64,000 nt of DNA. Source: Oceanibacterium hippocampi (GTDB lineage Bacteria; Pseudomonadota; Alphaproteobacteria; Sneathiellales; Sneathiellaceae). Position numbers and translations under genes: made by a program. Below are positions 43,260-47,110 of this stretch, one piece after another; position 1 is the first letter of the stretch, and the number at the start of each line of letters is the position of its first letter. The stretch spans positions 558,001 to 622,000 of the forward strand of contig NZ_FWFR01000001.1 in assembly GCF_900172325.1 (NCBI RefSeq), in the 5' to 3' direction. The notes below the pieces were generated by a model. It was not told the DNA's origin. It did no database searches and was given only the letters and a program-made list of their open reading frames with translations.

Positions 43260-43397
43260 CCGCGCTCGCCTATCCGCGGCAGATTCGGCATGATAATCGG
43301 CCGGACACGGCCTATCCTTTCGCCGGCCCTTGTTGGCGGTTCGGCCGAGGGCTAGTCTCGATACCGAATTCGACCAAACGACCGTTAGGGAAGCGTG

Positions 43398-44411
43398 ATG
43401 AAGGCCGCGATACTCAAGAGCCCCGGGATCGATAACCTGGTCGTCGAGGATCGTCCGGTGCCGAAGCCGGGTCCCGGCGAGGTGCTCGTCCGGCTGCGCT
43501 TCGCGACGCTCAATTTCCGCGACCTGCTGGTGATCAACGGCGGTTACGGCTCGCAACAGCGCCAAAGCGATCTCGTGCCGCTCTCCGACGGCGCCGGGGA
43601 GGTCGAGGCGGTCGGTGCCGGTGTCACCGGCTACAAGGCCGGCGATCGGGTGGTCGGGCATTTCTTCCCGGCCTGGCAGTCGGGCGAGCCGAGCGAGGCC
43701 AGGTTCTCGGTCAACCTCGGTGGCCGGATGGATGGTGTTGCCTGCGAATACCGGCTGTTTCGCCCGGACGCGATCGCGCATGTCCCTGAACATCTGAGCC
43801 TCGCCGAGGCCGCCGCCCTGCCCTGTGCCGGGTTGACGGCGTGGAACGCGGTGATCGCGCAGGGCGAGACCAAGCCCGGCGACTGTGTCCTCGTTCAGGG
43901 TACCGGCGGGGTCTCGTTGTTCGGACTGCAGTTCGCCCATGCCGCCGGCGCGACGGTGATCGCGACCTCCTCGTCCGACGCCAAGCTGGAGCGCTGCAGG
44001 GCGCTCGGCGCCGATCACCTGATCAATTATGTCGACGTCAAGGATTGGGGCGATCGCGCGCGGGCCCTCAGCAGCGAGGGCCAGGGCGTCGACCATGTGG
44101 TCGAGGTGGGCGGCGCCGGCACGATGAAGCAGTCGCTCCGGGCGGTTCGCGTCGGCGGCCGGATCAGCATGATCGGCGTGCTGGCCGGCAACCGGCACGA
44201 ACTGAACGTGCCGATCATCGTCATGAGGAGCATCCGTTTGCAGGGCGTGACCGTCGGCTCCTACGAACATTTCACGGCGATGCTTCGGGCAATCGCGCAG
44301 AGCCGGATCAAGCCGGTGCTGGACCGGACCTTCCCGCTCGCCGAGATCCGCGCGGCATTCGACCACCTGCAATCGGGCGGTCATTTCGGAAAGATCGTGA
44401 TCGAGATCTGA
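43398..44411 (+). CDS. Zinc-free MDR family NAD(P)-dependent oxidoreductase
   Basis: A 337-residue medium-chain dehydrogenase/reductase. The GroES-like catalytic half begins MKAAILKSPGIDNLVVED and has GDRVVGHFFPAW; the catalytic-zinc cysteine and histidine positions are not filled. The Rossmann half has GTGGVSLFGLQFAHAAGATV and GADHLINY. The lack of zinc ligands favours an enoyl reductase or quinone oxidoreductase over an alcohol dehydrogenase. ATG 43398 is taken over a GTG one codon upstream. It precedes the HMG-CoA-synthase-like/thiolase pair by 42 bp and could share its pathway. Confidence 0.83.
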   Translation: MKAAILKSPGIDNLVVEDRPVPKPGPGEVLVRLRFATLNFRDLLVINGGYGSQQRQSDLVPLSDGAGEVEAVGAGVTGYKAGDRVVGHFFPAWQSGEPSEARFSVNLGGRMDGVACEYRLFRPDAIAHVPEHLSLAEAAALPCAGLTAWNAVIAQGETKPGDCVLVQGTGGVSLFGLQFAHAAGATVIATSSSDAKLERCRALGADHLINYVDVKDWGDRARALSSEGQGVDHVVEVGGAGTMKQSLRAVRVGGRISMIGVLAGNRHELNVPIIVMRSIRLQGVTVGSYEHFTAMLRAIAQSRIKPVLDRTFPLAEIRAAFDHLQSGGHFGKIVIEI

Positions 44412-44453: not shown

Positions 44454-45896
44454 ATGGTTAGCATCCTGGCCTATGGCGGCTATGTCCCGCGGCTCCGGCT
44501 GTCGCGCGAAGCGATCGTCACCGCCAATTCCTGGTTCAATCCGGCGCTCAAGGCGCACATGGCCGGCGAACGGTCGATCTGCAACTGGGACGAGGACCCG
44601 CTGACCATGGCGGTCGCGGCCGCCCGAGACTGCCTGACCGGCGTGGCGAAGGAGTCTGTCACCGCCTGCCATCTTGCCTCGACCACCCTGCCCTTCGTCG
44701 ACCGCCAGAATGCCGGCGTCGTGGCCGCGGCCGCCGGCCTGCCCGAAACGGCGACGACGATGGACGTCACGGGTTCGCAACGGGCGGCGACCACGGCGCT
44801 CGCCGCCGCCTGCCGGGACGGCAGCGGCCGCACCCTTCTGATCGCCAGCGAGAAACGCGAGGCCCGTTCGGGGGCGCCGCAGGAGGCGCTTTACGGAGAC
44901 GGCGCGGCGGCACTGCTGATCGGGCCCGGCCCGGGCATCGCTCGCCTGGTCGCCAGCGCCGGCGTCGCGGTCGATTTCGTCGATCATTACCGCGCGCCCG
45001 ACCATCGCTTCGAATATGGCTGGGAGGAACGCTGGATCCGCGACGAGGGCTATCAGAAGATCGTACCCCGGGCGCTGGAACCGGCCCTTGCCGAGGCCGG
45101 GATCAGCGGCGCCGAGATCGATCATTTCGTAATGCCCTGTGTCTATCCGGCGGTAACCCGCAGCTTCGCGCGGACATACGGCATCCGGCCCGAGGCGGTC
45201 AGCGACACGCTGCAGGCGGTCATGGGCGAGGCCGGCGCGGCGCACCCGCTGGTCATGCTGACGCGTGTGCTGGAACAGGCAAGGCCCGGCCAGAAGATCG
45301 TGCTGGTCGGCTTCGGCCAGGGCGCCGACGCGCTCGTTTTCGAGGTCGAGGAGGGGATCGCCCGCCTCGAGCCCCGGATCGGCATCGGCGGCCACCTGGC
45401 GCGCGGGCGGCCGGAAACCAACTACCAGAAATATCTCGCGATGAACGGCCTCGTCGATCAGGAGCACGGCAAGCGCGCCGAGATCGACGGCCAGACCGCG
45501 CTGTCCACGCTCTATCGCAAGCGCGACATGGTCACCTCGCTGATCGGCGGAGTCTGCCGGACCTGCGGTACGCGGCAGTTCCCGAAAAGCGCGCTCTGCG
45601 TGAACCCGAACTGCGGCGAGTACGACAGCCAGGACGATTATCCCTTCGCCGACGAGCCGGCCAGGGTCCTGACCTGGTCCGCCGACCACCTGGTCTTCGT
45701 ACCGACCCCGCCGGCCCATTACGGGATGGTGCAGTTCGACGGCGGCGGCCGCTTCATGGCCGACTTCACCGATGTCGCCGAAGGCGAGGTCGAGGTCGGC
45801 ATGGACATGCGGATGGAGTTCCGCATCAAGGAAATGGACAGCGATCGGGGCTTCCGGAAATATTTCTGGAAGGCTGCCCCGGCGCGGCAGGGTTGA
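44454..45896 (+). CDS. HMG-CoA-synthase-like protein with fused DUF35 domain; nucleophile Cys appears replaced by Gln
   Basis: A 480-residue fusion. Residues 1-340 are a thiolase-fold protein of the HMG-CoA synthase/KAS III type (YGGYVPRLRLSRE; DVTGSQRAATTAL; LVGFGQGADALVFE). Where archaeal HMG-CoA synthase has the acyl-accepting cysteine four residues before a conserved threonine, this protein has Q109. Residues 365-476 are a DUF35 module: zinc ribbon CxxC...CxxxxC (C368, C371, C382, C387) and an OB fold. DUF35 proteins channel acyl-CoA between thiolase and synthase in archaea and in PhlACB. A GGAGGAAA box precedes the ATG. The thiolase gene follows by 11 bp. Chemistry unknown. Confidence 0.8.
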   Translation: MVSILAYGGYVPRLRLSREAIVTANSWFNPALKAHMAGERSICNWDEDPLTMAVAAARDCLTGVAKESVTACHLASTTLPFVDRQNAGVVAAAAGLPETATTMDVTGSQRAATTALAAACRDGSGRTLLIASEKREARSGAPQEALYGDGAAALLIGPGPGIARLVASAGVAVDFVDHYRAPDHRFEYGWEERWIRDEGYQKIVPRALEPALAEAGISGAEIDHFVMPCVYPAVTRSFARTYGIRPEAVSDTLQAVMGEAGAAHPLVMLTRVLEQARPGQKIVLVGFGQGADALVFEVEEGIARLEPRIGIGGHLARGRPETNYQKYLAMNGLVDQEHGKRAEIDGQTALSTLYRKRDMVTSLIGGVCRTCGTRQFPKSALCVNPNCGEYDSQDDYPFADEPARVLTWSADHLVFVPTPPAHYGMVQFDGGGRFMADFTDVAEGEVEVGMDMRMEFRIKEMDSDRGFRKYFWKAAPARQG

Positions 45897-45907
45897 GGGA
45901 GGAGACG

Positions 45908-47110
45908 ATGGCTACCGGAATCAAGGACAAAGTCGCCATTCTCGGCATGGGCTGCTCGAAGTTCGGCGAACGCTGGGACATGAGCGCCGACGACCTGATG
46001 CTCGAGGCCTTCCGTGAGGGACTTGCGGACGCGGGTATCGAGAAGAACCAGATCGACGCCGCCTGGCTCTCGACCTGCTTCGATGAGGTCAGCGTCGGGA
46101 AGTCGGCGGTGCCGCTCTCGGAAGCCCTCCGCCTGCCCTATATCCCGGTCACCCGGGTCGAGAATTACTGCGCTTCCGGAACCGAGGCGTTCCGTGCCGC
46201 CGCCTATGCGGTGGCCTCGGGGGCTTGCGATTTCGCCCTCGCCCTCGGCGTCGAGAAACTCAAGGATACCGGCTATGGCGGCCTGCCGGTGCAGGGCCGC
46301 GGCCCGCTGGTGCCGATGTGGTGGGCCAATGTCACCGCGCCCGGCAGCTTCGCCCAGCTCGCCTCCGCCTACCGTGCCAAGCACGGCATCGACAAGGAGA
46401 CCTTCAAGCGCGCGATCGCCCATGTCTCGGTCAAGAGCCACGACAATGGCACGAAGAACCCGAAGGCCCATCTGCAGAAGGCGATCACCGAGGAACAGGC
46501 GATCAATGCGCCGATGATCGCCGAGCCGCTCGGCCTGTTCGATTGCTGCGGCGTCTCCGACGGCGCGGCCTGCGCCATCCTGACCCGCCCGGAGATTGCC
46601 GAGAGCCTCGGCAAGAAGGATCTTGTCTCGGTCAAGGCGCTCCAGCTCTCGGTCTCGAACGGCGTCGAATCCCAGCACAATTCCTGGGACGGCAGCCATT
46701 TCAAGACGACCCGGATCGCCGCCAAGCGGGCCTACCAGGAAGCCGGGATCGAGACGCCGCGCGAGCAGATCAGCATGTTCGAGGTGCATGACTGTTTCTC
46801 GGTCACCGAGCTGGTGACGATGGAGGACCTGTTCATCTCCGAGGAGGGTCAAGCGGTCAGTGACGTGCTCGACGGCTTCTACGATGCCGACGGCGGTGTC
46901 CCCTGCCAGATCGACGGCGGCCTGAAATGCTTCGGCCACCCGATCGGTGCCTCGGGGCTCCGCATGATGTACGAGATGTACCTGCAGATCCAGGGTCGGG
47001 CCGGCGCGCGGCAACTCGCCGATCCGGTCTTCGGCATGACCCACAACTTGGGTGGCTCGCCCTGGCGGAATGTCTCCTCGGTCTCGATCGTCGGCCGCTA
47101 CGGCGCCTGA
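45908..47110 (+). CDS. Thiolase family protein (acetyl-CoA acetyltransferase / SCP-x-like)
   Basis: A 400-residue thiolase of the SCP-x/lipid-transfer branch. The nucleophile is C88 in VENYCASGTEAFRAA, HDCFSVTE follows later, and the catalytic His and Asn-loop motif GHPIGASGLRM is intact, so it should be active. The C-terminus ends VSIVGRYGA. A GGGAGGAGAC ribosome-binding site precedes ATG. It pairs with the upstream HMG-CoA-synthase-like/DUF35 fusion, as thiolase and synthase pair in archaeal mevalonate synthesis and in PhlACB. Substrate cannot be told; acetoacetyl-CoA formation or retro-Claisen cleavage are possible. Confidence 0.86.
   Translation: MATGIKDKVAILGMGCSKFGERWDMSADDLMLEAFREGLADAGIEKNQIDAAWLSTCFDEVSVGKSAVPLSEALRLPYIPVTRVENYCASGTEAFRAAAYAVASGACDFALALGVEKLKDTGYGGLPVQGRGPLVPMWWANVTAPGSFAQLASAYRAKHGIDKETFKRAIAHVSVKSHDNGTKNPKAHLQKAITEEQAINAPMIAEPLGLFDCCGVSDGAACAILTRPEIAESLGKKDLVSVKALQLSVSNGVESQHNSWDGSHFKTTRIAAKRAYQEAGIETPREQISMFEVHDCFSVTELVTMEDLFISEEGQAVSDVLDGFYDADGGVPCQIDGGLKCFGHPIGASGLRMMYEMYLQIQGRAGARQLADPVFGMTHNLGGSPWRNVSSVSIVGRYGA

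Follow-up and report, generated by a model that had tools for sequence, protein, structure and literature searches.

The two adjoining genes described here, one encoding an HMG-CoA-synthase-like (HMGS-like) protein fused to a DUF35 module and the other a thiolase, quite probably constitute one obligate two-component beta-ketoacyl-CoA thiolase in which the HMGS-DUF35 fusion is the non-catalytic subunit. They lie in the window, by which we mean the whole 64,000-nucleotide stretch of the Oceanibacterium hippocampi genome that was analyzed (Table 1). The sequences of the window and its relatives show that the HMGS site is lost, the thiolase site retained and the pairing obligate; the physical complex, the reaction direction and the substrate class we infer. 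In the proposed enzyme Cys88 of the thiolase would take the acyl group, with H294 and H344 completing the site, and CoA would be used to cleave a 3-ketoacyl-CoA as part of catabolism. This chemistry is deduced from the family and its invariant residues, and the reaction direction from neighbors of the beta-oxidation type. The fusion would act as an obligate non-catalytic subunit, a thiolase-fold homologue of HMGS which has lost Cys, His and Glu and is joined to DUF35, and its dead HMGS-like part is probably a scaffold that also forms a wall of the pocket. DUF35 would bridge the HMGS-like and thiolase dimers and help to form the CoA/substrate cavity, as in relatives. The assembly would resemble those of PhlABC and the archaeal enzyme, except that A and B form a single chain; its stoichiometry is presumed by analogy.

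Table 1. Features of the HMGS-DUF35/thiolase locus (nucleotide positions in the window, residues of the 480-aa fusion).
Feature	Position	Strand	Remarks
MDR (zinc-type dehydrogenase/quinone-reductase-like) gene	43395..44411	+	Pfam ADH_N/ADH_zinc_N; 42 nt upstream of the fusion
HMGS-like + DUF35 fusion ORF, 480 aa	44454..45896	+	GGAGG motif upstream (good Shine-Dalgarno)
Pseudo-HMG-CoA-synthase part	about residues 1-336		phmmer matches to PhlA and archaeal HMGS
T77, site of the lost HMGS catalytic Glu (archaeal Glu82, PhlA Cys83)	44682..44684	+	T in 129/132 homologues
Q109, codon CAA, site of the lost HMGS/KAS nucleophilic Cys	44778..44780	+	aligned with Cys114 of 6esq_I and Gly115 of PhlA
P228, site of the lost catalytic His (FHQ in archaeal HMGS)	45135..45137	+	P in 119/132, H in 2/132 homologues
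DUF35 zinc ribbon/OB-fold part	about residues 361-477		Pfam
Zinc ribbon zf-ChsH2 (PF12172), residues 363-388 (C368, C371, C382, C387)	45540..45617	+	above Pfam gathering score
OB fold OB_ChsH2_C (PF01796; DUF35/ChsH2 C-terminal), residues 403-457	45660..45824	+	3.5e-10, above Pfam gathering score
SCP2-type thiolase (PRK06157 family), 400 aa, proposed catalytic subunit	45908..47110	+	NF004810, 2.8e-210

In phmmer comparisons the fusion matches PhlA (4.5e-31) and archaeal HMGS (1.4e-15). The best structural match of its AlphaFold model (mean pLDDT 88, pTM 0.91) is archaeal HMGS 6esq_I (VIA Z 44.5, 1.8 A over 330 residues), and the model also matches PhlA (Z 41.5-42.6; 5m3k_A 41.5), the HMGS-like subunit of MucABC from Streptococcus macacae (Z 39.8) and FabH C112Q (9ka5). 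The C-terminal DUF35 module with its four cysteines, already recognized when only the sequence had been read, is borne out by both Pfam families, and the fusion thus has the two marks of DUF35/ChsH2 proteins, four zinc cysteines and an OB fold. Folded alone, the DUF35 part is modeled with moderate confidence (pLDDT 73) and matches DUF35 of 6esq, PhlB, MucABC, BbsA (benzoylsuccinyl-CoA thiolase) and ChsH2 (Ltp2-ChsH2). All four zinc cysteines are kept in 111/111 close homologues. Most of them are lost in the relatives L147, L148, L150, L152, L153, L156, L158 and L167 (e.g. GRCRETGVVQFPRTRISVAPNNP), which include Sphingomonadales plasmid members and in which both the fold region and the partner thiolase are kept; this loss took at least three changes on the tree. 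Residues E191, E192, R193 and W194 are nearly invariant and lie in a segment (181-200) that is modeled unsurely in the monomer (block pLDDT 57-72), a pattern which would be expected of an interface loop.

In the phmmer alignments the residue opposite Q109 is the Cys within ACKAGT for 6esq_I and the Gly within FAGKSGT for PhlA (5m3k_A). The nucleophile site has been described as Cys114 in archaeal HMGS and as Gly115, the lost nucleophile, in PhlA, and the catalytic glutamate site as archaeal Glu82 and PhlA Cys83 (PMC6392133). These residue numbers agree with the phmmer alignment, which confirms the register and identifies T77 as the glutamate site. The claim of the sequence-only reading that Gln occupies the expected nucleophile position is hence upheld, the residue numbers given there are correct throughout, and beyond that reading the HMGS Glu (T77) and His (P228) sites were found to be lost too. 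The whole catalytic site of the HMGS-like protein, and not the cysteine alone, is gone. The fusion scores below the cut-offs of TIGR00748 (80.6 vs 353 bits) and NF003274 (145.9 vs 244 bits), and of the features of an active HMGS it lacks the Cys in (A/N)ACxxGT, the catalytic Glu and the catalytic His. HMG-CoA reductase was not found in the genome while Dxr is present, which makes an HMGS role of the mevalonate type unlikely. An active HMG-CoA synthase for the mevalonate route was rejected on these grounds together with the loss of the triad.

To what extent Gln itself matters can be seen from the homologues, a set of 132 distinct sequences with relatives down to about 30% identity. No intact active-site cysteine came out of their alignment (Cys at position 109 in 0/132); the residues found there are Gln (103), Leu (14), Met (5), Arg (4), Ala (2) and one each of Ser, Pro, Gly and His. 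In the 111 loci of 49-59% identity the counts are Q 96, L 12, R 2 and M 1. The position ranks 196th of 480 columns in entropy, and at least 14 changes between Gln and other residues are needed on a tree built without the columns under test. Gln, Met and Arg are all found inside one genus of the same family. A merely sporadic Gln had been named beforehand as the outcome that would speak against a meaningful substitution, and this was borne out in part: Gln is in the majority, yet it is freely replaced (29/132).

These data bear on the earlier suggestion that the Cys-to-Gln change stands either for a changed chemistry or for a structural role. Under the former the protein would be a KSQ-type decarboxylase, with Gln109 in place of Cys and a malonyl- or methylmalonyl-type CoA ester decarboxylated for the thiolase. 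The substitution at the nucleophile site, the prevalence of Gln and the presence of FabH C112Q among the structural matches are all in accordance with this. However, the replacement of Gln by L, M, R, A, S, P, G or H, also within one genus, is not what such a catalyst would be expected to show. Decarboxylating ketosynthases keep the catalytic His and Asn residues. In the homologues the His site is mostly Pro (Table 1), the Asn site (E259 here) is Glu or Asp in 111/132, and neither acyl-carrier nor carboxylase genes recur near the related loci. Since Gln109 is variable and the His and Asn sites are changed, the analogy fails, and with the Glu site (T77) lost as well we rejected this chemistry, to which we give hardly any probability. 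The structural half of the suggestion stands. Q109 would not be a catalytic amide, because it is freely replaced by Leu, Met and Arg, and is better seen as what looks like a drifted position in an abandoned pocket.

T77 is near-invariant although position 109 drifts. This counts against the preferred explanation, for the former pocket may have kept some function. The other near-invariant positions are the zinc cysteines, D46-E47-D48, P80, D104, E191-R193, G258 and G261. It is possible, although rather unlikely, that the acyl-CoA, be it substrate or product, is bound in the retained pocket (T77, D46-D48, D104, E191-R193, H264), which would thereby decide what the thiolase accepts, in the manner of a second, non-catalytic active site. 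If this were true, it would mean specificity for unusual ring- or branch-bearing substrates in a catabolic enzyme.

The thiolase starts 11 nt past the stop codon of the fusion and is preceded by AGGGAGGAG. That this gene is complete, as had been read from its C88 and GHPIGASG, is confirmed by a score of 698 bits against NCBIfam PRK06157 (cut-off 403). The three residues expected of a catalytic thiolase, i.e. the nucleophilic Cys (C88), the HDxF His (H294 of HDCF) and the GHPxG His (H344 of GHPIGASG), are all present; C88 and H294 occur in 100% and H344 in 99% of 109 thiolase homologues. The thiolase is also better conserved than its HMGS-DUF35 partner (mean pairwise distance 0.31 vs 0.49).

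The three-part design shared by the archaeal and PhlACB assemblies, which had been pointed out from the sequence, is found here as well: thiolase, HMGS-like protein and DUF35 are encoded together and each has the fold of its counterpart, the thiolase being judged by its sequence only. In the archaeal complex (6esq) thiolase and HMGS are held together by DUF35 and share the CoA site (PMC12329534). It has the same three parts, is the best structural match and has a close thiolase (1.2e-52 for 6esq_A), but its HMGS is active (Cys114, Glu82) whereas the triad of the window protein is lost, its DUF35 is a separate protein, and the window's genome is without HMG-CoA reductase. PhlABC (PpATase 5M3K, CsATase 9SKH) resembles the pair in an HMGS-like subunit without Cys and Glu, a DUF35 subunit and a catalytic thiolase Cys88. 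PhlC alone catalyses, and PhlA, which is without the Cys and Glu, is needed together with PhlB for assembly (PMC6392133); PhlA has been termed an inactive member of the thiolase superfamily (PMC2954200). Unlike in PhlABC, the HMGS-like and DUF35 parts of the window are in one chain, the thiolase is nearer to CoA thiolases, and the context is catabolic, with no PhlD. MucABC (9VBO), proposed to acetylate tetramate (PMC10161427), is likewise a three-component thiolase/HMGS-like/DUF35 system whose HMGS-like subunit carries Glu in place of the Cys, but its subunits are separate and lie in a biosynthetic cluster. BbsAB benzoylsuccinyl-CoA thiolase (7PXP) is, like the proposed enzyme, a catabolic thiolase with a DUF35 partner in a beta-oxidation-like route, but its solved structure is without an HMGS-like subunit.

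Given these similarities, the pair could also be a PhlABC-like acyltransferase, whose thiolase subunit passes the acyl group to a small-molecule carbon nucleophile and not to CoA. Parts and fold are common to PhlABC and MucABC, PhlA is the best match by sequence, and the HMGS subunit is dead in all three systems. Nevertheless we consider this improbable: the thiolase resembles CoA thiolases and archaeal acetoacetyl-CoA thiolase (1.2e-52) more than PhlC (1.8e-13), the neighbors are CoA-dependent beta-oxidation genes and not phlD or NRPS/PKS genes, and the one type III PKS-like gene of the genome lies far off. This last gene is a single match to the chalcone/stilbene synthase N-terminal family, above the cut-off and far from both pairs of the genome (L213, G000:C6:147506-147916).

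The two-component beta-ketoacyl-CoA thiolase that we propose presupposes that the genes go together. In a class-wide sample of 289 alphaproteobacterial genomes HMGS-DUF35 and the thiolase were present in an identical set of 51, with no discordant genome, a count that is uncorrected for shared ancestry. Of the records in the plasmid collection, 34 have the HMGS-DUF35 gene and each of these has the thiolase too; the only other thiolase matches are four haloarchaeal records of 38-40% identity. Both genes are on one strand in 168/168 loci, mostly with 10-120 nt between them, and in a few loci the pair is interrupted by at least one further gene. Among L104, L123, L136, L072 and L113 are relatives with an amidohydrolase-like gene (MPYVENR-VHDADSHLMEL) in this place, and L072 and L113 have a nucleotide-sugar epimerase-like gene there. 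The distances of the partner proteins correlate (r = 0.91, 98 loci), a value that common descent by itself could also produce. No natural one-chain fusion of HMGS-DUF35 and thiolase was found among the 168 loci; long open frames over some thiolases were considered as fusions and rejected, the two genes lying in different frames. The genome of the window itself has a second pair (L032:7839-12325, G000 contig C6), 55% (HMGS-DUF35) and 73% (thiolase) identical to the first; it shares its operon with genes for MaoC hydratase and acyl-CoA dehydrogenase and likewise has Gln at 109. Against obligate pairing stands a lone extra thiolase copy in two genomes of one group (L214:4517-5725 and L215:907-2103; 75% identical), without adjoining HMGS-DUF35. 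Both of these genomes also hold a complete pair elsewhere.

The MDR gene upstream may be co-transcribed with the pair in the window, and the sequence-only reading held that the oxidoreductase may act on the product. The MDR neighbor is specific to the window and not enriched (2/52 related loci vs 1/20 control stretches taken from comparable genomes, a small set), and MDR was rejected as a pathway partner. The remaining neighbors in the window are housekeeping genes (ubiB, coaBC, dut, cysK, moeB, pckA, chvG), none catabolic, and point to no particular pathway, which counts against the explanation we prefer. Across the relatives, annotated loci adjoin genes for SDR, MaoC hydratase, acyl-CoA dehydrogenase, CoA transferase, AMP ligase and CoA ester lyase. 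At least one of seven beta-oxidation-like families is present in 39/52 loci vs 6/20 in the small control set; MaoC is found in 18/52 vs 0/20 and SDR in 25/52 vs 4/20. The context across relatives is that of beta-oxidation-like catabolism with the thiolase as the last step. Actinobacterial plasmid relatives (L163, L169, L170) have a ring-hydroxylating dioxygenase, a CoA ligase and several enoyl-CoA hydratases, apparently an aromatic-acid degradation module.

Such surroundings would also suit a retro-aldol or other retro-Claisen lyase, like Ltp2/ChsH2 or Sal/Shy, in place of a plain thiolase. ChsH2-Ltp2 (6ok1) and Sal-Shy (9myr) are among the matches of the DUF35 fold, a relative in an estrogen cluster adjoins a lipid-transfer/OB-fold pair, and the dioxygenase and CoA ligase beside the actinobacterial relatives form a layout which we take to resemble the deacylating ipf genes. 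The window thiolase, however, retains the nucleophile C88 and both the HDCF and GHP histidines, and the SDR so frequent near the related loci would make the 3-keto substrate. A lyase of this kind is improbable, and we hold to the two-component beta-ketoacyl-CoA thiolase.

The estrogen cluster just mentioned connects the pair with a published problem. In the edc cluster of Novosphingobium tardaugens an 'HMG-CoA synthase', EGO55_13555, adjoins the thiolase EGO55_13550; the authors left it unassigned, remarked that a condensation made no apparent sense there, and suggested 'other activities (e.g., thiolase)' (PMC7793797). In locus L168 of Novosphingobium sp. ES2-1 the gene order equals the published edc order, and its HMGS-DUF35 fusion, with the thiolase adjoining, is 32% identical to the window protein and has Leu at position 109. 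EGO55_13555 is thus presumably a distant relative of the window protein, by gene order and the ES2-1 relative and not by its own sequence. Regarding the HMGS-like protein as a dead partner would offer a role for EGO55_13555 and for similar 'HMG-CoA synthase' genes in degradation clusters.

From all these results we conclude that the pair is a fused, catabolic, two-gene variant of the known thiolase/HMGS/DUF35 enzymes, and that its family is widespread and misnamed. In hundreds of genomes the gene is annotated as hydroxymethylglutaryl-CoA synthase, 3-oxoacyl-ACP synthase III C-terminal or OB-fold protein. The sequence argues against the biosynthetic or mevalonate role that these names imply. 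With the reading proposed here the PhlABC-like enzymes gain a catabolic branch of two genes, which is useful for biocatalysis and for the annotation of degradation pathways.
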